Assembly (NCBI RefSeq): GCF_009754905.2
Contig: NZ_CP066775.1
Location: 1,736,001-1,800,000 of the forward strand
Reading direction: 5' to 3'
Length of the DNA: 64,000 nucleotides
Origin: Mucilaginibacter ginkgonis
GTDB taxonomy: Bacteria > Bacteroidota > Bacteroidia > Sphingobacteriales > Sphingobacteriaceae
Part shown: piece by piece, positions 31,673 to 40,182 of the stretch
How positions within the stretch are numbered: the first letter of the stretch is position 1
How the letters are laid out: each line of letters begins with the position of its first letter
The notes under the pieces: generated by a model
What the model was told of the DNA's origin: nothing
Databases searched by the model: none
Seen by the model: only the letters and a program-made list of their open reading frames with translations
Made by a program: the position numbers and the translations under genes

Positions 31673-32236
31673 CTAAAGATTTGCCAGTTTAAAATAGCCA
31701 AGATGGATCTCATCTTCTGCTTGCTCTTCTGTTGGTGTTATCCTCAGCGTAAACCGTTGCTTTTCCCAAGCCGGCAAAATGTCTTCTATTTCGTAAATGT
31801 CATCCACGTCTACGCCAAACTTATCATCGATATGCGAGTTGGCGCCTTCGAAATGTACGGTCTTGAAAAATTCGGTCTCTTTAGCCCATGCAATAGCCTT
31901 GCTCATGTTTGGCTGCACAGTAACCAGCTTCTTATGCGGCTCGTCAAATAAACCACGCTGATAACCGCCAAGGTTGATAAAGAACAGTTTAGCATCGGTA
32001 TTACCTGTCTGCTCGTTGCTTCCTTTTTCGACAACCTCGATTTTATATCCCCCCACATAATTTACCTCGCGCCAGGCATCAACATGGATGCGTCCGTTGG
32101 CTTCGGGCCAAAACTTAATGATACCCGGCACCAGTTCTTTTAACGAGGTGCCTACGCTAAAAAAGATGTCGTGTTGTTCTGTATGGCGTCCCGGCGGGCA
32201 GCAGCCAAGCATCAGCATAAATAGTTTGTTGTTCAT
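31673..32236 (-). CDS. DUF1543-domain protein
   Basis: A 187-residue protein of the DUF1543 family, recognised by its start Lys-Leu-Phe-Met-Leu-Met-Leu-Gly-Cys-Cys-Pro-Pro-Gly-Arg-His-Thr-Glu-Gln-His-Asp. Two related halves are suggested (about 1-85 and 90-187). No signal peptide or membrane helix is seen. The function is unknown. It converges on the aminopeptidase gene, their stops being 5 bases apart, so the two genes share a 3' region. Confidence 0.82.
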   Translation of the reverse strand: MNNKLFMLMLGCCPPGRHTEQHDIFFSVGTSLKELVPGIIKFWPEANGRIHVDAWREVNYVGGYKIEVVEKGSNEQTGNTDAKLFFINLGGYQRGLFDEPHKKLVTVQPNMSKAIAWAKETEFFKTVHFEGANSHIDDKFGVDVDDIYEIEDILPAWEKQRFTLRITPTEEQAEDEIHLGYFKLANL

Positions 32237-32338
32237 TGCGGGTTGAAATTATGCAGGCAAATTACTTACTTTTAAAAAGATGAAGAGCGTGTTTTAATTT
32301 AATTACCTTAAGATATTGCCTCACCGGGATTACCAATT

Positions 32339-32779
32339 ATGGAGACCATCGAAATAAAAAAACAAAGCAAGCGTATCTTCGCGCAAGAGGCTAACCTCTC
32401 CGGTTCCAGATTTCACAACGCAATGTTGAACGATTGGGACCTGAATGATGTTGCCATGTGCAATCTAAAGATCGTTAATGCCAACCTTAGCGACCTGGAA
32501 ATCGAAGGCGCGCAAATGGGCGGCGCGTACATCCACAATGTAGGCGGGCCTCCCGAAGGTCACCCTGCATACGACCCAAACTTTAAACAGCGCCCAGTTA
32601 AGTTTGAAGATTGTAATTTAAATAATAGTACAATGTCTGATTGTTACCTCGGATCTTTCACCATTACGAACTGTAACCTCACTAACGCGAAGATCGAAGA
32701 TTGCAACCTGGCCGGAATGACCATCAACGGCATCCTGGTTTCGGACCTGTTAGCAGCCTATCGTAACGCCGTTAAATAA
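32339..32779 (+). CDS. Pentapeptide-repeat protein
   Basis: A 146-residue protein with two blocks of pentapeptide repeats of the A(D/N)LXX type: residues about 18-62 (Ala-Asn-Leu-Ser-Gly, Ala-Asn-Leu-Ser-Asp, Leu-Glu-Ile-Glu-Gly) and 90-130 (Cys-Asn-Leu-Asn-Asn, Cys-Tyr-Leu-Gly-Ser, Cys-Asn-Leu-Thr-Asn, Cys-Asn-Leu-Ala-Gly). A non-repeat insert (Gly-Gly-Pro-Pro-Glu-Gly-His-Pro) lies between them. The right-handed beta helix may mimic DNA, as in gyrase-protecting Qnr proteins, but nothing shows that here. It converges on the VOC/MFS genes. Confidence 0.82.
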   Translation: METIEIKKQSKRIFAQEANLSGSRFHNAMLNDWDLNDVAMCNLKIVNANLSDLEIEGAQMGGAYIHNVGGPPEGHPAYDPNFKQRPVKFEDCNLNNSTMSDCYLGSFTITNCNLTNAKIEDCNLAGMTINGILVSDLLAAYRNAVK

Positions 32780-32782
32780 AGT

Positions 32783-33139
32783 CTATTCCTGGTGCAGGCT
32801 TAAGCGGTTACCATCTGGATCTATAACGGCGGCAAATCTGCCCCATGGCGTCTGGTCTATCGGCTCTGCTTTTATGCCTTTGCTTTGAAGGGTGGCAAGC
32901 TCGGCATCAAGATCGTTGCAGTGGATAACAAATCCACGGAGGCTGCCTACGGGCATTTCGGGGAACCAGGTTACCAGCGCTATTGTCGTATGCGGCGCGC
33001 CGGGCAAAGCCATTTGTACCCATTTTTGATCAGGGCCCAAAGGCGCCTCAATGATCAGTTCAAAACCAAATTTCAGATAAAATTCTTTAGCGCGCTGTTG
33101 GTCGCTTACCGGGATTGAAACAATGCTAATGTGGTTCAT
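32783..33139 (-). CDS. VOC-family (glyoxalase superfamily) protein
   Basis: A 118-residue VOC protein: Val-Ser-Ile-Pro-Val-Ser-Asp-Gln-Gln-Arg-Ala-Lys-Glu-Phe-Tyr at the start and Ile-Asp-Pro-Asp-Gly-Asn-Arg-Leu-Ser-Leu at the end, with His-x and Glu/Gln metal-ligand positions. The substrate is unknown. It starts 2 bases after the MFS transporter stop and is therefore its operon partner. Confidence 0.86.
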   Translation of the reverse strand: MNHISIVSIPVSDQQRAKEFYLKFGFELIIEAPLGPDQKWVQMALPGAPHTTIALVTWFPEMPVGSLRGFVIHCNDLDAELATLQSKGIKAEPIDQTPWGRFAAVIDPDGNRLSLHQE

Positions 33140-33141
33140 AT

Positions 33142-34464
33142 TTAGTGGGTTATGTGGCTTATATGATTATCTTCCATTTTAGTATGCTTGTCACTATCAG
33201 GAATAAAAGCACTGACGATTAACGATACTACAGAACAGGCCGTTATATACCAGAAGAACCATTCAGCATGGCCTGCTACTTTAAAGTTTAAGGCAACAGA
33301 CTCGGCAGTCCCGCCAAAAATCGCAACGGATAAGGCATAAGGAAAACTTACACCCAGCGAGCGGATGTTGGCCGGAAACAGTTCTGCTTTGATGATGGCA
33401 GATATAGAAGTGCAAAAACTTAAGATAACCAGTGCCGCTACAATGAGCAGGGTTGCCGTATAAAAATCATGCGTGCGGCCAAGCGCTGTCATAATAGGAT
33501 AAGTGGTAACCATACTGACAACGCCGTAAATCACCATCAATCTTTTTCGGCCGATCTTATCGCTTAACAATCCGGATAATGGCTGCGCTATCATGAACAC
33601 AATAAGCGCGATCATGGTAATGGTGGTCGACTCATTCTTGGTGAAGCCTGCCGTATTGACCAGGAACTTTTGTATATAAGTTGTGAACGTATAAAACGCC
33701 ACTGTTGTGCCGATGGTAAAGCCTACGATCAATAACAGTTCTTTTTTGTATTTCAACAGTTCTGCAAAGCTACCTTTGCGCGACTCGGCAACGGTTTCAT
33801 TTTTAAATGACTCCGTTTCAGGTAAACTGCGGCGTAAATAAATGGCAGAGAAAGCCAGCAACGCGCCTAAGCCAAAAGGTATGCGCCACCCCCATTCGCC
33901 CAATTGCGCGGGGGTTAAAAATATGCGCTGTAAAGCAAGTAGTATCGTTAACGCGATGATCTGGCCTAAACATGATGTTACGTACTGAAAGCTGGAGTAG
34001 AACCCTCTGCGATGTTTGGGGGCTATCTCGCTCAGATAAGTTGCCGCCGTTCCATACTCGCCGCCAATGCTTAAACCTTGCAACATGCGCGCAAGTACCA
34101 GGATGATAGGCGCGGCAATCCCTATGGTATTGAAGTTGGGCACAAAGGTGATCATTAGCGAGCCGCCGCTCATCATTAAAACAGACAAGGTTAGGGCCGC
34201 TTTGCGGCCTTTTTTATCTGCATAAGTGCCCATGATCCACCCGCCAATAGGGCGCATTAAAAAACCGATGGCGAAAATGCCGGCTGTATTAAGCAACTGG
34301 GCGGTCTGATTTGCTTTGGGGAAGAACGCCGCGCCGAAGTACAACGCGAAAACAGAATAGGCATACCAATCGTACCACTCCACCAAGTTACCAACAGAGC
34401 CGCCGAAAATGGCTTTGGCTTGTTGCCTTATAATTTGTGACCTGGTAAGTTTGACGGGCTGCAT
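33142..34464 (-). CDS. MFS transporter, metabolite:H+ symporter (KgtP/ProP-like) family
   Basis: A 440-residue inner-membrane symporter with 12 helices. MHS-subfamily signatures are Gly-Asn-Leu-Val-Glu-Trp-Tyr-Asp-Trp-Tyr-Ala-Tyr in helix 1, Arg-Pro-Ile-Gly-Gly-Trp-x-x-Gly-x-Tyr-Ala-Asp-Lys-Lys-Gly-Arg in loop 2-3, and Gly-Leu-Ser-Ile-Gly-Gly-Glu-Tyr-Gly in helix 4-5. Relatives carry alpha-ketoglutarate, citrate, proline/betaine or shikimate; the closest substrate cannot be chosen by eye. ATG 34464 (Met-Gln-Pro-Val-Lys-Leu) is preferred; an in-frame start at 34479 is possible. It is divergent from the fulvocin-like cassette. Confidence 0.9.
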   Translation of the reverse strand: MQPVKLTRSQIIRQQAKAIFGGSVGNLVEWYDWYAYSVFALYFGAAFFPKANQTAQLLNTAGIFAIGFLMRPIGGWIMGTYADKKGRKAALTLSVLMMSGGSLMITFVPNFNTIGIAAPIILVLARMLQGLSIGGEYGTAATYLSEIAPKHRRGFYSSFQYVTSCLGQIIALTILLALQRIFLTPAQLGEWGWRIPFGLGALLAFSAIYLRRSLPETESFKNETVAESRKGSFAELLKYKKELLLIVGFTIGTTVAFYTFTTYIQKFLVNTAGFTKNESTTITMIALIVFMIAQPLSGLLSDKIGRKRLMVIYGVVSMVTTYPIMTALGRTHDFYTATLLIVAALVILSFCTSISAIIKAELFPANIRSLGVSFPYALSVAIFGGTAESVALNFKVAGHAEWFFWYITACSVVSLIVSAFIPDSDKHTKMEDNHISHITH

Positions 34465-34499
34465 GGCTAAAAGTATCAATTTGCGGCGGACAAAAACAA

Positions 34500-34530
34500 T
34501 TGCGCTGCTGCAAAAAATAAAATAAATTTG
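34500..34530 (+). promoter_or_regulatory. Predicted promoter of the fulvocin-like cassette (TTG-N20-TAAATTTG)
   Basis: TTG at 34500-34502 and TAAATTTG at 34523-34530 are separated by 20 bases, the ideal Bacteroidota spacing. The box ends 47 bases before the ATG at 34578, leaving a very AT-rich leader that contains alternating TATA runs. Confidence 0.6.
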
Positions 34531-34577
34531 GATTTTAATATATAATATATATTAGTTTCTCTAAACTAAACAATATT

Positions 34578-35225
34578 ATGAAATCAAAAATTATCCTAAC
34601 GGCCTTAACCGCAGTTCTTTTTTTCTCATGTAAAAAAGAACAACAAAGCAATGTTGCGAATGATGTCAACACCTCAAAAACGATTGCCACACAAAGTATC
34701 AACTCAGCTCTTATTCGAGAGGTAACAAGTCTTCCAACTTACAGCGAAAGAAAATCTGCTTATGTAAAAATGCTTAGTGATTACGAAAAGTACACTGTCT
34801 GGAATACGCGCTTCCAAGATGCTATCTCCTCTCATGCTTTCAATGCGGAACAGCTAGGACTCATTAAAGAAGTGGTTGCAAAAGTCACTCCCGTTTTTTT
34901 CACTGATACATTAGTGCGCAATACTAACGGTTTCTTTTTTGCTGATTGGAAAATTCGTGCTAAAGAACATTTTTCGTTGGCTCAATTAAAGTATTTGTTG
35001 AGCGATATAATTATCTTTAATAAGAGTGACTTTGTAAAATTGGGTAGCGAAGATATTACAATACAACAGGCTGTTGTTAAAACAATGAATGTGCCAGCAA
35101 GTTGCGGTTGCAGTATGCAATCAGATTGGTGCGGTACTGCATATGGCTGCTATGGCAGGTCTTGTAGTCATGACACCGGTTGTGGGACGTTATTGCAATA
35201 TGATTGCAATGGTCTTTGTTATTAA
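34578..35225 (+). CDS. Fulvocin C-related bacteriocin precursor (lipoprotein with eight-Cys C-terminal core)
   Basis: A 215-residue protein with a lipoprotein signal (lipobox Phe-Phe-Ser-Cys, Cys18), a helical middle region of about 150 residues, and a cysteine-rich end. Residues 174-215 hold eight cysteines (176, 178, 185, 191, 196, 202, 210, 214). The order Ala-Ser-Cys-x-Cys-Ser...Ser-Asp-aromatic-Cys resembles the start of fulvocin C, the 45-residue four-disulfide bacteriocin of Myxococcus fulvus (compared from memory). The core is likely released by cleavage before Ala174 or Cys176, but no protease is encoded alongside. Codon use is AT-rich, unlike the surrounding genes. It overlaps the next gene. 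Toxicity is inferred, not shown. Confidence 0.75.
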   Translation: MKSKIILTALTAVLFFSCKKEQQSNVANDVNTSKTIATQSINSALIREVTSLPTYSERKSAYVKMLSDYEKYTVWNTRFQDAISSHAFNAEQLGLIKEVVAKVTPVFFTDTLVRNTNGFFFADWKIRAKEHFSLAQLKYLLSDIIIFNKSDFVKLGSEDITIQQAVVKTMNVPASCGCSMQSDWCGTAYGCYGRSCSHDTGCGTLLQYDCNGLCY

Positions 35226-36150
35226 ATTTGATTCTGTGAAACCTTATGCAAGAATTTTTTATATAGTTGGAATCGTAATAATAAGCTGCGCGATAATGTT
35301 TGCAAACGCTTATTTAGCGTCAGTTTCTATAATACGAGATAACAGGTTAGCTAGTAATCAATCGCTTTTTTTTCTTTATTTTTTTTCAATAATAATATTT
35401 ACTAAAGTATTTGGCACTGTTAATACTAATTACCTGATATTACTATTGTTTTTGCCCGTGTTTTTTTTATCCGTATTTGGGGTATACGCTAACCCTTACG
35501 CATTTCCATATAAGTATCCATTACAAACGATAAACGTACTTTTTGCATTATTTTTAGGCAAACAGGCATCACAATTTAAGCAGCCTGCTTTTTTTAAGCA
35601 GGCTGCCATTTGCATATCGGGTGCAATTGTATTATTTGTGTGTTGCTGGTATCTTTTTAAAAAGGACTTTGCCGATGATAGCCAGATGCGAACAAGTGTC
35701 TTTAAAGAAAAACAAAACCAAAAAGATATTTTACAAATTGAGAATGAACTAGTAGATACCTTAGGCAACCACTTGGTGTTTAATGATAAAAAGTATTACA
35801 TACTCGATTTTAGTTATCGCGATTGCAGGCCTTGTAGAATCAAATTAGATTTCTTAAAGCGCTTTTCTAAAGAAAGCCCTTCAAATTTGCAGATTGTTTA
35901 CATTTCGCCATCAATTGCAGAAACCTATAAATATTTTAAAGAGAATCTAACGCACGAAAACGATGATAAAATTATTTATGCTTATTTAAACGATAATGTA
36001 TTGCTAAAAAAAATGGGTATAACACTATTCCCACGTGAAATTTTTATAGGTCCCGATCTTAAAATTTTAAGATTTAAGGATGGATTTCAGGAATCTGATG
36101 AGAGTTTCTACAAGGAAAACACATTAAAATTTATTAACAATGCGCAATAA
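35209..36150 (+). CDS. Membrane-anchored thioredoxin-fold protein with Cys-Arg-Pro-Cys site
   Basis: About 313 residues. The N-terminal half has four or five hydrophobic helices (about residues 12-32, 45-63, 70-90, 130-150) in a MauE/DoxX-like arrangement. A last helix leads to a soluble C-terminal thioredoxin-like domain (about 190-313) with Asp-Cys-Arg-Pro-Cys-Arg in place of Trp-Cys-x-x-Cys and a cis-Pro (Leu-Phe-Pro-Arg-Glu). The domain would face the periplasm and could oxidise, isomerise or reduce the eight-Cys peptide of the gene before it. Starts at 35209 (ATG, 17-base overlap) or 35236 (GTG) are possible. It overlaps the DUF1573 gene by 11 bases. The gene is AT-rich. Confidence 0.75.
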   Translation: MVFVIKFDSVKPYARIFYIVGIVIISCAIMFANAYLASVSIIRDNRLASNQSLFFLYFFSIIIFTKVFGTVNTNYLILLLFLPVFFLSVFGVYANPYAFPYKYPLQTINVLFALFLGKQASQFKQPAFFKQAAICISGAIVLFVCCWYLFKKDFADDSQMRTSVFKEKQNQKDILQIENELVDTLGNHLVFNDKKYYILDFSYRDCRPCRIKLDFLKRFSKESPSNLQIVYISPSIAETYKYFKENLTHENDDKIIYAYLNDNVLLKKMGITLFPREIFIGPDLKILRFKDGFQESDESFYKENTLKFINNAQ

Positions 36151-36523
36151 ATTAATCCGTCTTATATCACTGGCCGTGATAATTGCAAGCGGCTGTAAAG
36201 AAAAACCCCCGAAAATCGTATTCATGTATCAAACAGTTAATATGGGTGTTCTCGATAGCACGCATAAGATAACAACAAAAACATTCAGGTTTAAAAACCG
36301 TGGTGGGCACAAATTGGTTATCAAAAACATAGCCTCTGATTGTTCTTGTACAGTAGCAAAATTTACCAAAGATTCTCTTTCGCAAGGTCAAGAAGGCGAA
36401 ATTTTAATTACTGTAAACCGTGATCAAATCATAGAAAGAGGCAACCTTGAACGGAGAGCGGTTGTGGAAAGCAATACTACACCTATACTACATTCGCTTA
36501 TTATAAAAATGCGTGTAAATTAA
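36140..36523 (+). CDS. DUF1573-domain lipoprotein
   Basis: A 127-residue lipoprotein (signal with lipobox Ala-Ser-Gly-Cys, Cys19) whose mature part is a single DUF1573 beta-sandwich. The family core is seen in Phe-Arg-Phe-Lys-Asn-Arg-Gly, Leu-Val-Ile-Lys-Asn-Ile-Ala-Ser-Asp-Cys-Ser-Cys-Thr and the late Gly-Glu-Ile-Leu-Ile-Thr-Val. Such proteins are common in Bacteroidota and often sit beside thioredoxin-like secreted genes. Overlap with the membrane thioredoxin gene makes it the third cassette member. It may bind or present the peptide or protect the producer, which is speculative. Confidence 0.8.
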   Translation: MRNKLIRLISLAVIIASGCKEKPPKIVFMYQTVNMGVLDSTHKITTKTFRFKNRGGHKLVIKNIASDCSCTVAKFTKDSLSQGQEGEILITVNRDQIIERGNLERRAVVESNTTPILHSLIIKMRVN

Positions 36524-36678
36524 AAGACTTTGCGAGTCACAATTTAAAAACTTAAAATTCTAAGTCTAGCAAAAAAGACGCTCATTGCATATTTGGCATA
36601 GCTAAAGCCATCCTTTTTTATTTTCACTTTAATGGTGATATTTCGCAGCATAGATGCACATCACCAAAATCTATTTTT

Positions 36679-37215
36679 ATGCAAGCACATCCCTTTCCTG
36701 TCGATGCACAACAACGGGAAGAATTTTTTCTACTGTGTTATAAACAAACCTTCCCTGCCGTTGCCGCGTATGTGGCTAAAAGAGGCGGCAGTTTTGAAGA
36801 TGCAAAAGATATTTTTCAGGATGCGGTTGTAATTTATTACGAGCACTTTGTGAACAACAAGACAGAGCCGCATAACCGGCAGGCTTACCTGATGGGGGTT
36901 GCTAAAAACCTTTGGCTGCGCAAGTTTAACAGTGAAAAGATGACAACGCCGATCGAACAGATTACTGATCTGCCTGTAGAGGAAAGTGAAGATCTGTCTG
37001 AGACACGCGTGCTAAATTTCCTTGAAAAAGCCGGTAAGAAATGTTTGGAGCTCCTCCGCGCTTTCTACTATGACAAAGTGCCGCACGAAGAACTTGCCGG
37101 GCAATTTGGCTTCTCTGGTGTTAGATCGGCAACTGTGCAGAAATATAAGTGTTTAGAGAAAGTGCGCGACACCGTAAAACAAAAACAATTGCAATATGCG
37201 GACTTCGTTGAATAA
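36679..37215 (+). CDS. RNA polymerase sigma factor, ECF/sigma-70 type
   Basis: A 178-residue sigma factor with region 2 (about 15-85: Phe-Pro-Ala-Val-Ala-Ala-Tyr-Val, Phe-Glu-Asp-Ala-Lys-Asp-Ile-Phe-Gln-Asp-Ala-Val, Ala-Tyr-Leu-Met-Gly-Val-Ala-Lys-Asn-Leu) and region 4 (about 120-170: Leu-Leu-Arg-Ala-Phe-Tyr-Tyr-Asp-Lys-Val-Pro-His-Glu-Glu-Leu-Ala). This layout is usual for Bacteroidota ECF factors. It overlaps the following small gene by 20 bases. The target promoters are not identified; no copy of an obvious shared motif was found in the window. Confidence 0.87.
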   Translation: MQAHPFPVDAQQREEFFLLCYKQTFPAVAAYVAKRGGSFEDAKDIFQDAVVIYYEHFVNNKTEPHNRQAYLMGVAKNLWLRKFNSEKMTTPIEQITDLPVEESEDLSETRVLNFLEKAGKKCLELLRAFYYDKVPHEELAGQFGFSGVRSATVQKYKCLEKVRDTVKQKQLQYADFVE

Positions 37216-37477
37216 GATAGCCGAAACTGAAATTTTTCTGCAAGGCGATATGGAGCCAAATGATGCCTTGCTTTTCAAGGCAGATATGCTGATTAATCCG
37301 TCGCTTGAGGAAAATGTAACAGCCCAGGCACGCACCTATCACCTTATAAAGCAATACAGCCGCAAACAGCTAAAAGCTGAGCTGGAAACCGTTCACCAAA
37401 AATTATTTACGCAAAGTCGTTTCAGGATTTTCGCTGAACGGGTGAAGCGCTTGTTTAACGACGAGCCGTTTAAGTAA
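37196..37477 (+). CDS. Small protein encoded with the sigma factor (candidate regulator of it)
   Basis: A 93-residue protein with no recognised domain, no cysteines and no membrane helix. It is helical and charged, with Leu-Gln-Gly-Asp-Met-Glu-Pro-Asn-Asp-Ala-Leu-Leu-Phe-Lys-Ala-Asp-Met near the start, a pattern seen in the cytoplasmic N-terminus of many anti-sigma factors. Its start lies inside the end of the sigma gene (20-base overlap), implying matched synthesis. It may be a soluble anti-sigma factor or the remnant of a membrane-bound one. Confidence 0.6.
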   Translation: MRTSLNKIAETEIFLQGDMEPNDALLFKADMLINPSLEENVTAQARTYHLIKQYSRKQLKAELETVHQKLFTQSRFRIFAERVKRLFNDEPFK

Positions 37478-37495
37478 TCCATTATTAGGAAAACC

Positions 37496-38674
37496 TTACG
37501 ACAACTTTCTGCGCTTCTTTTCTTTGACTATCAAACTCAGTTCGCGGCTCATTTGCCCGGCAATGGCGGTGTTCTCCTGTGCACGGCGAAAAAGGTATGG
37601 CAGCACTGCTTTAACCGGTCCGTAAGGCACGTATTTGGCAATGTTGTAATCGGCACTGGCAAGGTTAAAGCTTAAATTATCGCTCATGCCCAAAAGTTGA
37701 GAGAAATACACGTTTTTATTGTCATGTGCTATCCCCTTACGCTCCATTAGTTCGGTGAGTACCCTGCAGCTTTGTTCGTTATGGGTGCCTGCTACAAAAG
37801 CGATCTTATCGATGTGATCTGTACAAAAATCGAGGGCTTTGTCGTAATCATTATCGGTTGCAGCTTTATCAGACTGTATAGGTGATGGATAGCCTTTTTC
37901 AGCAGCGCGTTTACGCTCCTTTTCCATATAAGCGCCACGCACCAGCTTAGCGCCAAGCATAAAGCCTTCTTCTTCGGCAACTGCAAAATCATCTTTAAGC
38001 GACTGCAATTTATCGTGACGATATATCTGATAAGTATTATAAACGATGCACTTATCTGCATTAAAACGGCGCATCATTTCCAGCGCCAAATGGTCGATCG
38101 TTTTTTGTATCCAGCTTTCCTCGGCGTCTATCATTACCGGCACGCCGGCATCTGATGCTTTCTGGCAAATGGCCAGCACTCTGGCCTGTACCTTTTGCCA
38201 CTCGTCGCTTTCTTCGGCGGTGAGGCCCCGGCCTGCATCCAATTTTTCAAGCAAACCAAAGCGGCCTACACCTGTAACTTTAAAAACAGTAAGCGGGATG
38301 GCATTATCGCCTGTGGCACGTACAATGGTACGAATGATCTCGTCGCGGGTCTCGTCAAAAACAGCTTCTTCGTCTTCACCCTCTACCGAGTAATCTAATA
38401 TGGTCCCTACTCTCCCGCCGGCCAGCTCTTGTATAACCGGTGTGCACTCCTCAATGGTTTCTCCGCCGCAAAATTGCTTAAATATGGTAGCCTTAATAAT
38501 TCCCTTTATAGGCAAGCCAATCTTCATAGCAAAATTGGTAATGGGCGGACCGACTTTTACCAGCGTATTTATATTTATAGCCCTAAAAAGCCAGTAAGCA
38601 CGGTTAAGCCCGGCATTGTTCAGATGCCTGAACGCGATCTCGGTGTTCTCGAACGATAATTTAGATTTGGGCAT
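37496..38674 (-). CDS. Proline dehydrogenase family protein
   Basis: A 392-residue FAD-dependent (beta-alpha)8 barrel enzyme that oxidises proline to 1-pyrroline-5-carboxylate and feeds electrons to the quinone pool. PRODH landmarks are Lys-Val-Thr-Gly (strand 2), Asp-Ala-Glu-Glu-Ser-Trp, Tyr-Asn-Thr-Tyr-Gln, Lys-Leu-Val-Arg-Gly-Ala-Tyr and Gly-Thr-His-Asn-Glu. It is separate from P5C dehydrogenase here, as is common in Bacteroidota. The frame is open to ATG 38701, but a -7 box (TAAATTTG) ends 4 bases before it, so transcription would start at or inside that ATG; ATG 38674 is therefore preferred. Confidence 0.9.
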   Translation of the reverse strand: MPKSKLSFENTEIAFRHLNNAGLNRAYWLFRAININTLVKVGPPITNFAMKIGLPIKGIIKATIFKQFCGGETIEECTPVIQELAGGRVGTILDYSVEGEDEEAVFDETRDEIIRTIVRATGDNAIPLTVFKVTGVGRFGLLEKLDAGRGLTAEESDEWQKVQARVLAICQKASDAGVPVMIDAEESWIQKTIDHLALEMMRRFNADKCIVYNTYQIYRHDKLQSLKDDFAVAEEEGFMLGAKLVRGAYMEKERKRAAEKGYPSPIQSDKAATDNDYDKALDFCTDHIDKIAFVAGTHNEQSCRVLTELMERKGIAHDNKNVYFSQLLGMSDNLSFNLASADYNIAKYVPYGPVKAVLPYLFRRAQENTAIAGQMSRELSLIVKEKKRRKLS

Positions 38675-38705
38675 TGCGCCCGGGTCACTTTCAACTGGCA
38701 TGGTG

Positions 38706-38713
38706 CAAATTTA
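38706..38713 (-). promoter_or_regulatory. Predicted -7 box (TAAATTTG) of the proline dehydrogenase gene
   Basis: On the minus strand TAAATTTG (38713-38706) matches TAnnTTTG. It is divergent from the S4-domain gene's box at 38752, so the two promoters share a stretch of about 50 bases. Confidence 0.5.
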
Positions 38714-38751
38714 GAAATGCATTATCATAACCCATTATAACGCGAATAGTT

Positions 38752-38759
38752 TATTTTTG
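38752..38759 (+). promoter_or_regulatory. Predicted -7 box (TATTTTTG) of the S4-domain gene
   Basis: TATTTTTG matches TAnnTTTG and ends only 6 bases before the ATG at 38766, so the mRNA should be leaderless or nearly so. Confidence 0.5.
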
Positions 38760-38765
38760 CCGGGT

Positions 38766-38972
38766 ATGATCAAGTTTAAACTGGAGGGCGAATTTATCCC
38801 GCTGATACAATTACTTAAAGCCACCAACCTGGTACAAACAGGCGGCGAGGCGCAGATAGTTGTATCAGAAGGCGAAGTAAAATATAACGGCGAAGTAGAT
38901 TACCGCAAACGCCTGAAAGTAAGACAAGGCGACAGAATAGAATACAACGGGCAAAAGATAGAGGTGGTGTAA
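38766..38972 (+). CDS. S4-domain RNA-binding protein (YbcJ-like)
   Basis: A 68-residue protein that is a single S4-type RNA-binding domain: Phe-Ile-Pro-Leu-Ile-Gln-Leu-Leu-Lys-Ala-Thr-Asn-Leu-Val-Gln-Thr-Gly-Gly-Glu-Ala and Lys-Tyr-Asn-Gly-Glu-Val-Asp-Tyr-Arg-Lys-Arg-Leu-Lys-Val, the usual pattern of the YbcJ/YaaA group. It probably binds ribosomal or structured RNA. An in-frame TTG at 38757 lies inside the promoter box, so ATG 38766 is used. Confidence 0.88.
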   Translation: MIKFKLEGEFIPLIQLLKATNLVQTGGEAQIVVSEGEVKYNGEVDYRKRLKVRQGDRIEYNGQKIEVV

Positions 38973-38973
38973 G

Positions 38974-39042
38974 CCTCACCCAACCCTCTCCGAAGGAGAG
39001 GGCTTTTGAAGTCCTCCCTCCCGGGGAGGATTTAGGTGGGGC
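38974..39042. repeat. Intergenic palindromic repeat, family D
   Basis: CCCTCTCC-GAA-GGAGAGGG (38984-39002) is followed by CCTCC...GGGGAGG and flanked by CCTCACCCAA and TTAGGTGGGG, which are themselves roughly complementary, so the whole block can fold. The stretch also follows the S4 gene directly and may end its transcript. Confidence 0.6.
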
Positions 39043-39049
39043 TCATAGT

Positions 39050-39081
39050 ATGCCGCGTCGCTACGTACTCGCAATGACAAA
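39050..39081. repeat. Partial family B repeat
   Basis: CGTCGCTACGTACTCGCAATGACAAA carries the CTCGCAATGAC end seen at 57331-57341, without its partner end. It is a degraded copy. Confidence 0.4.
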
Positions 39082-39126
39082 CAGGCTAGGAATAACTAAT
39101 AACTTAATAACCCAATCACTAAAAGA

Positions 39127-40182
39127 GTGAACAACATAAACAGCATAGGGTACGAGATTTCGTTTCAAAATAGCCTTAACCAGCTAATCAGCTTCATTGA
39201 CAACAGCAGCTACACAAAATTTTTCATCCTTACAGATGAGATCACTACCGTGCATTGCCTGCCTGCACTTGAAGTCAGATTAGTGGGTCGCACTTATGAT
39301 CTGATAGAAGTGAGCGCCGGTGAAGAATGTAAAAACCTGGACTTTTGCATTGGCGTGTGGAAAATGCTCATCGATTTTAACGCCGACCGTAAAAGTCTGC
39401 TAATTAATCTCGGCGGTGGTGTGGTAACAGATATGGGTGGCTTCATCGCATCTACTTACAAACGCGGTATCGACTTTGTAAATGTGCCGACTACCCTGCT
39501 TTCGCAGGTGGACGCCTCAGTGGGCGGCAAAACCGGTGTCGACCTGGATAGCATTAAAAATATCATCGGTACGTTCACTCAACCTAAAGCCGTATTTATT
39601 GCACACGAATATTTAAGTACGCTGCCCGAAAGGCAAATACTTTCCGGCCTGGCCGAGATGCTGAAACACGGACTTATTAAAGACCAGGCGTACTGGAACG
39701 ATTTGAAAAACAGCGATCTGTCGCTGCCATCTGCAGAATTAGTTTACCGGTCAGTCGAGATAAAAAATGAAGTTGTCATTGCTGACCCGCACGAAAAAGG
39801 GATCCGCAAGGCATTGAATTTTGGGCACACAGTTGGCCACGCTGTCGAAACGTTTTCATTAGATAATGATAAACGCTCGCTTACCCACGGCGAAGCGATA
39901 GCGATTGGTATGGTGTGCGAAAGCTGGCTTTCCTGTAAAAAGAGTGGCCTGAGCCAAAATGAGTTAGACGAGATCGTCGGCGTATTGATGCGCCTGTATC
40001 CTAAATACAATTTGCAACTCGAACGGGCAGACGAAATCATAACCCTGATGCGTAAGGACAAAAAGAATGAAGGCAATAAAATTAATTGTACTTTATTAGT
40101 GTCCATCGGCAATTGCCTGATAGACCAGATCTGCAGCGAAGATGAGTTGCGCGAAAGTTTGGAATTTTATGCAGGGCTTTGA
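39127..40182 (+). CDS. aroB: 3-dehydroquinate synthase
   Basis: A 351-residue NAD- and Zn-dependent enzyme that converts DAHP to 3-dehydroquinate, the second step of the shikimate pathway. Motifs include Gly-Gly-Gly-Val-Val-Thr-Asp-Met-Gly-Gly-Phe-x-Ala-Ser, Pro-Thr-Thr-Leu-Leu-Ser-Gln-Val-Asp-Ala-Ser-Val-Gly-Gly-Lys-Thr-Gly, Gly-Leu-Ala-Glu-Met-Leu-Lys-His and the zinc ligand region Asn-Phe-Gly-His-Thr-Val-Gly-His-Ala. It starts with GTG at 39127, as no ATG lies nearby. Flanked by repeats, it seems monocistronic. Confidence 0.95.
   Translation: MNNINSIGYEISFQNSLNQLISFIDNSSYTKFFILTDEITTVHCLPALEVRLVGRTYDLIEVSAGEECKNLDFCIGVWKMLIDFNADRKSLLINLGGGVVTDMGGFIASTYKRGIDFVNVPTTLLSQVDASVGGKTGVDLDSIKNIIGTFTQPKAVFIAHEYLSTLPERQILSGLAEMLKHGLIKDQAYWNDLKNSDLSLPSAELVYRSVEIKNEVVIADPHEKGIRKALNFGHTVGHAVETFSLDNDKRSLTHGEAIAIGMVCESWLSCKKSGLSQNELDEIVGVLMRLYPKYNLQLERADEIITLMRKDKKNEGNKINCTLLVSIGNCLIDQICSEDELRESLEFYAGL

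Follow-up and report, generated by a model that had tools for sequence, protein, structure and literature searches.

The question raised by this locus is why the gene of a cysteine-rich, fulvocin C-like lipoprotein should be accompanied by genes for a membrane-bound thioredoxin and a DUF1573 lipoprotein. The three genes lie in a row on the forward strand at 34500-36523 of a 64,000-nucleotide stretch of Mucilaginibacter ginkgonis DNA (contig NZ_CP066775.1, positions 1,736,001 to 1,800,000; the whole stretch is hereafter termed the window), and are designated A (fulvocin C-related lipoprotein), B (membrane protein with a C-terminal thioredoxin domain), and C (DUF1573 lipoprotein). We found that A is physically linked to thioredoxin-type partners in two phyla, by gene position and by gene fusion. 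We read A as a fulvocin C-type disulfide module that is carried on a lipoprotein with its own thiol-disulfide helpers and that may be displayed or released to act on related bacteria, a reading to which we assign a probability of about 0.42.

An earlier, sequence-only reading of the window had described overlapping genes and a lipidated precursor with eight cysteines resembling fulvocin C, and these descriptions were borne out. Neighboring genes overlap by (i) 17-26 bases for A and B, depending on the B start chosen; and (ii) 11 bases for B and C. The NCBI family NF033852 ('bacteriocin fulvocin C-related') matched A at 85.6 bits (curated cut-off 35), and a Pfam search of A returned no family at cut-off. 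Downstream of the signal peptide and lipid-attachment site, the core cysteines were located at residues 176, 178, 185, 191, 196, 202, 210, and 214. Homologues were found to keep them: in an alignment of 35 members from Bacteroidota and actinomycetes, which left out the broken genes at loci L044 and L047 and the degraded gene at L089, seven cysteine columns are invariant and the eighth shifts. At least eight cysteines were present in the last 75 residues of the core piece at 33 of 34 loci; at L046 six were found there and two others further in, owing to its tail. Mean pairwise identity within the family was 19.8% for the helical domain, 22.1% for the core without its cysteines, and 10.5% for the linker. 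Thus, from its lipid anchor onward, A is predicted to have a helical domain that a variable linker connects to a disulfide module. The helical domain and the core are conserved to about the same degree, so that A may be more complex than a leader joined to a toxin. No shared cleavage motif was seen before the first core cysteine when the A proteins were inspected by eye. A structure model of A from its lone sequence had a mean predicted local distance difference test (pLDDT) score of 36.5 and was not used, a profile of A gave nothing convincing against solved structures (best E 0.11), and the window A had no match in phage and plasmid records.

The neighbors of A were then compared across Bacteroidota, using a first set of 28 loci from 26 genomes (with L059 included through a pattern scan) and a held-out set of six further loci. 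Neighbors were required to be on the same strand and at most 3.5 kb from A, with one scoring for all loci. Three partner types were recorded, including (i) a membrane-thioredoxin gene like B, beside A at 21/34 loci (17/28 and 4/6 held-out; L083 is one locus with B beside A); (ii) a short DUF1573 gene at 19/34 loci (18/28 and 1/6); and (iii) an O-antigen-ligase-like gene at 8/34 loci (7/28 and 1/6). At least one of the three accompanied A at 31 of the 34 loci (26/28 and 5/6), with none at L046, L047, and L131. The expectation of the sequence-only reading that the three genes occur together therefore held in part: A keeps company with this set of partners, whereas the exact trio of A, B, and C was found at 10/34 loci (10/28 and 0/6 held-out). 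Its proposal of a dedicated thioredoxin partner was supported by the count for B and by a reciprocal search, in which a profile of the B membrane part matched 3 of 151 genomes of the taxonomic family, and in each the match adjoined A. Six genomes of that family carry A, and the three without a match to the B profile (L028, L035, and L042) have the ligase instead.

No such neighbors were detected in 199,365 control bases comprising the remainder of the window, the loci from 11 relatives, and the far ends of the A loci, where the same rules excluded four thioredoxin-like frames that had fewer than three membrane segments and a long thioredoxin-DUF1573 frame near A at L032. In addition, 20 of 30 A genes had a DUF1573 gene no more than 3 kb away, in every case downstream and on the same strand, compared with 0.17 predicted by copy numbers (a count from which the 15 weakest DUF1573 rows were dropped). 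It could be argued that the neighbors adjoin by chance or through common regulation only and have no joint function, since DUF1573 genes are common (3-11 copies in 25 of 26 A-bearing genomes) and the exact trio is confined to less than a third of the loci; however, adjacency lies far over background and is repeated in the held-out loci, and a fusion occurs in another phylum, such that we regard this alternative as very improbable. The conserved cysteines and recurrent neighbors place the unit well beyond chance.

The A family is thinly spread. It was detected in 6 of 151 genomes of the family, 17 of 400 of the order, 7 of 295 of the class, and 4 of 296 of the phylum (overlapping samples), in 7 of 257 genomes of the order containing a Bacteroides sp. 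genome, and, among actinomycetes, in 9 of 80 genomes of one family (8 over cut-off) and 8 of 246 of its class. When named genomes were scanned for the pattern, 19 matches appeared: six are true members, from Planomonospora, two Nonomuraea, Sinosporangium, a Bacteroides sp., and Mucilaginibacter (myungsuensis, L066), and the remaining 13 look like cysteine-rich frames of other kinds. In 16 of 17 actinomycete frames a thioredoxin-like domain with the motif Phe-Asp/Asn-x-Ser/Ala-Cys-x-x-Cys is fused ahead of the A region, a count that omits L061/L076 and L105 (contig end) and the partial frames L079, L090, and L091. The exception was the Planomonospora frame L057, which has no fused domain; a stop lies 88 bases from the locus end, and the frame begins beyond it. 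For L103 and L104, whose annotated gene starts lie 3′ of the fused domain, the fusion rests on the open frame. The fused domain is followed by a stretch resembling a twin-arginine (Tat) signal in 9 of the 16 frames and by an Arg-Lys form in two.

This fused domain was compared with known folds. A profile of seven fused domains gave non-significant matches to PDB sequences, 20 in all at E 0.05-0.9, of which 18 were thioredoxins, one a PDI, and one a lipoprotein. In a model of the Nonomuraea glycinis protein (L065; mean pLDDT 64.6), residues 6-85 form a beta-alpha-beta-alpha-beta-beta-alpha arrangement. A fold search with this actinomycete fusion gave no match at E ≤ 0.001; the best was at 0.12, and the leading rows included PDI and thioredoxin domains. 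A second fold comparison, which barely covered the helical domain, reached middling Z scores of up to 5.1 over model residues 4-91, with rows that were mostly glutathione transferases, PDI, and thioredoxin domains. With the fused domain first, then the Tat-like signal and then the peptide, the helper would sit on the inner side of the membrane before export. Relatives of A were also noted in 13 Streptomyces plasmid records; L101-L104 lie on large linear plasmids, and the annotation around these four loci lists no neighbors resembling exporters or partners.

Based on these associations, a route can be outlined for the window unit in which A would leave the cytoplasm as a lipoprotein, for which a dedicated ABC (ATP-binding cassette) exporter would therefore not be needed. 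The four disulfides of A may be formed or corrected in the periplasm by the thioredoxin domain of B, which is tethered to the membrane, and by protein C with its Cys-x-Cys motif; the folded module would be displayed at the cell surface, possibly be freed through a cut in the variable linker, and presumably act against related bacteria. The surface-lipoprotein export signal of Capnocytophaga is given as C-X-K-(D/E)2-X (PMC5080379); the window A, with C-K-K-E-Q from the lipid-bearing cysteine onward, has the lysine and one of the two acidic residues, and the form xK(D/E) was found in 9/28 A proteins by a script that took an earlier cysteine in some of them (13/28 including four more by eye). Helper-linked bacteriocins provide a precedent that supports our reading: pediocin PA-1 with PedC (PMC4919988) and sublancin with BdbB (PMC6391423) are presented as having thioredoxin-type disulfide helpers. 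Likened by motif and position, these systems and the window unit each pair a disulfide peptide gene with an adjoining CXXC thioredoxin-fold gene. They differ in that the PedC and BdbB operons include ABC exporters, whereas the window has the proposed lipoprotein route, a multi-pass membrane-bound helper, and an added DUF1573 protein. The sequence-only reading had thought a lipoprotein bacteriocin unusual; in this phylum it is not new, as the BSAPs of Bacteroidales are described in PMC12853789 as surface-exposed antibacterial lipoproteins. Unlike A, BSAPs carry a MACPF domain; none was detected in A by Pfam at E up to 1, and the BSAP model matched the first 68 residues of A weakly, at 13.9 bits (cut-off 380). 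Fulvocin C itself, from Myxococcus fulvus (as cited in PMC8708641), is tied to A through the family model, by the NF033852 match and the C-terminal eight-cysteine module; in the window, by comparison, the module forms part of a lipoprotein that also has a helical domain, and the genes B and C adjoin it.

The longest frame of B starts at ATG 35089, with the two later ATGs listed in Table 1 being likelier starts. Four hydrophobic segments were detected in the window B and 3-5 in its relatives. The Pfam Thioredoxin_8 match is barely over cut-off (28.2 vs 27 bits), no NCBIfam model matched B, and the thioredoxin part of B relatives resembles the ResA, StoA, and TlpA models, all far under cut-off. 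A CXXC motif is present in 18 of the 21 B proteins found beside A. Cysteines in the membrane part of the B proteins are not at common positions, which makes a DsbB- or VKOR-like relay unlikely.

Protein C was matched by PF07610 (DUF1573) at 62.4 bits (gathering threshold 26.1; 4.3e-17). Its Cys-x-Cys motif is kept in 18/18 DUF1573 neighbors of A from the first 28 loci and in the single held-out case. With the model NF041425 of the OS_HP2 (seleno)proteins, C scored 44.1 bits, under the cut-off of 100; against solved structures the best E was 0.25. DUF1573 selenoproteins with a UGC motif (U, selenocysteine) are tabulated in two reviews (PMC9312934 and PMC13188914), where the table entries name no function, and this form fits a redox-active pair. 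At L032, L040, and L042, a separate lipoprotein combines an N-terminal thioredoxin-like part with a DUF1573 part; in that of L032, the DUF1573 match clears the Pfam cut-off and the Thioredoxin_7 match does not. Together, the Cys-x-Cys motif of C, the UGC form, and the thioredoxin-DUF1573 fusions point to probable redox work. The suggestion of the sequence-only reading that the DUF1573 protein confers immunity gained no evidence from these comparisons and was set aside.

Several results weigh against A being a bacteriocin-like module folded by its own helpers. The strongest against a catalytic role for B in the branch of the window is that the B proteins nearest to the window B, those of L037, L038, and L039 (34, 28, and 28% identity, compared with 12-18% for 12 other B proteins), have SAPC or SAAS in place of CXXC. 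Furthermore, (i) B is missing at 13/34 loci and C at 15/34; (ii) the B profile used in the reciprocal search was trained on the B genes of the same three genomes, among others, and a leave-one-out profile reached near relatives and not L080-L082 and L084; (iii) the thioredoxin fold of the actinomycete domain is suggested by the motif and by weak matches; (iv) L089 and L109, both counted among the 16 fusions, keep the fused and helical domains while the core is degraded, with few cysteines; (v) neither an immunity gene nor a cleavage motif was seen at the locus; and (vi) the putative antibacterial activity of A is adopted from the family name.

The CXXC-less proteins bear on two alternative roles for B. 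In one, B of the window branch binds A as a chaperone or anchors it in the membrane, the thioredoxin fold of B serving for binding rather than redox chemistry; in keeping with this, L037-L039 have SAPC or SAAS instead of CXXC yet retain both the gene order and the eight A cysteines. However, the window B has the CXXC, as do most B proteins beside A, and we judge such a role distinctly improbable. In the other, B provides self-protection, its periplasmic thioredoxin domain reducing and inactivating peptide that reaches the producer, while C helps or is unrelated. Immunity genes usually stand directly behind the peptide gene. Membrane protein B is encoded directly 3′ of A, PedC-type exporters are missing, and the relatives of B show the sub-threshold resemblance to ResA, StoA, and TlpA noted above. 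Counter to self-protection, the same three near relatives keep the B gene without its CXXC, and the actinomycete domain is N-terminal to the export signal and thus would be on the inner side if the predicted topology is right. This presumed inner-side position of the actinomycete helper favors folding help over immunity, and a self-protective B appears improbable.

A further possibility is that A is a stable, uncut two-domain surface lipoprotein, with a disulfide knob that binds a partner or ligand and with B and C maintaining its disulfides, and is not a bacteriocin. The equal conservation of helical domain and core, the lack of a shared cleavage motif seen 5′ of the core, the finding of neither an immunity nor an exporter gene in the window, and the lipid anchor of the Bacteroidota members are all in keeping with this. 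The NF033852 name and match, the patchy spread (e.g., 17/400 genomes of the order), the low G+C of the unit, the members on Streptomyces plasmids, and the variable linker speak against it, and on balance we consider it unlikely.

If the module reading of A is extended beyond the window, the fulvocin C-type peptides of at least two phyla might represent one secreted system with a built-in thiol-disulfide partner. In actinomycetes the partner would be fused ahead of the Tat signal, with disulfides set before export; in Bacteroidota it would be a separate membrane-thioredoxin protein together with DUF1573, the latter as a new type of Cys-x-Cys helper that serves the disulfides of an antibacterial peptide borne on a lipoprotein. 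We regard this generalization as rather doubtful at present. The peptide family (named and modeled), helper-linked bacteriocins, and lipoprotein bacteriocins (the BSAPs) are already known. Among the open-licence PMC papers searched, none was found that (i) describes the gene neighborhood of the fulvocin C family; (ii) joins DUF1573 with a bacteriocin; (iii) joins the ligase with thioredoxin, Bacteroidota, bacteriocin, and lipoprotein; or (iv) deals with NVEALA. The build of lipoprotein, membrane-thioredoxin, and DUF1573 and the actinomycete fusion appear to be undescribed in these papers. With a rule of co-occurrence, the fulvocin C family would have a chemistry open to testing (disulfide formation), and the widespread DUF1573 a first functional lead. 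Small bacteriocin-like peptides of Bacteroidota may also be able to use lipoprotein display as a route.

Table 1. Positions in the window of the A-B-C unit and its parts
Feature	Position	Strand	Remarks
Promoter-like site TTG-N20-TAnnTTTG	34500..34530	+	exact match, 47 bases 5′ of the ATG of A
Gene A, fulvocin C-related lipoprotein, 215 aa	34578..35225	+	NF033852 match over cut-off
A, signal peptide and lipid-attachment Cys18	34578..34631	+	LTAVLFFSC then KKEQQ; lipobox LFFS followed by C18
A, predicted helical domain, residues 45-145	34710..35012	+	conserved in 35 aligned members; helices in model of related L065 protein
A, eight-cysteine module, residues 176-214	35103..35219	+	seven Cys columns invariant in 35 members
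Gene B, membrane protein with C-terminal thioredoxin domain	35200..36150	+	start 35200 or 35209; Thioredoxin_8
B, CRPC motif, residues 209-212	35824..35835	+	read from sequence
Gene C, DUF1573 lipoprotein, 127 aa	36140..36523	+	Pfam PF07610
C, Cys68-Ser-Cys70	36341..36349	+	Cys-x-Cys kept in DUF1573 neighbors

The base composition and surroundings of the unit were also examined. As the sequence-only reading had stated, the unit is AT-rich: the G+C content of 34540-36523 is 0.340 compared with a window mean of 0.441 (standard deviation 0.027 among 2-kb stretches), and the unit falls within the lowest-G+C, hence most AT-rich, 2-kb stretch of the window. A single promoter with ideal spacing had also been proposed. 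A site in good position ahead of A does match TTG-N20-TAnnTTTG, which we take to be the Bacteroidota promoter consensus, and no TTTG form with a 19-base spacer was found; however, the window contains four copies of the pattern, compared with an average of 1.64 per shuffled sequence (11 of 100 shuffles reach four), and this count adds little beyond the good placement of the site. In agreement with the statement that no exporter or immunity gene is visible, no ABC gene was recognized by eye among the frames at 32000-39500, and no immunity gene was visible in the window. The left flank holds a major-facilitator-like gene on the opposite strand (named from its sequence, no search having been made), and the right flank a gene with sigma-70 region 2. 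At 36679-37477, a sigma-70-like gene and an overlapping 93-aa gene look like a sigma/regulator pair. This pair is kept in 11/11 same-genus loci examined, of 79 other genomes with a match, and within about 1.5 kb (0.7 kb in L111) these 11 loci contain neither A, B, or C nor the left-flank transporter, as a result of which an insertion junction cannot be drawn.

Other arrangements were observed at the relatives' loci. The O-antigen-ligase-like gene was found at L028, L031, L032, L035, L036, L040, L042, and L129, mostly where the membrane-thioredoxin gene is missing; in the L031 protein, Wzy_C is over cut-off and a TPR-like end under it. The thioredoxin-DUF1573 lipoproteins (L032 1604-2644, L040 9628-10719, and L042 9839-10906) lie near transglutaminase-like lipoproteins at A loci of this ligase type. 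Tandem pairs of differing fulvocin-related genes, followed by one DUF1573 gene, were found at L032 5807-7091 and L040 6040-7413, and broken fulvocin-related genes at L044 5916-6677 and L047 6002-6611, with the DUF1573 neighbor intact in L044. Two further gene types were noted near A, for neither of which a match was listed in the window. The first, at L031 8919-9901, L035 2042-3030, and L132 7004-7947, is an ABC ATPase with a small membrane protein, a candidate for export or self-protection; the three ATPases are 41-64% identical, and the small membrane proteins of L031 and L035 match each other, while that of L132 has no match to them at E 1e-6. The second is a helical-domain-only paralogue directly 3′ of A, found in two phyla (L131 5029-5475 and, in Sinosporangium, L094 8535-8933, which equals L079); these coreless paralogues are candidate immunity proteins or decaying copies.

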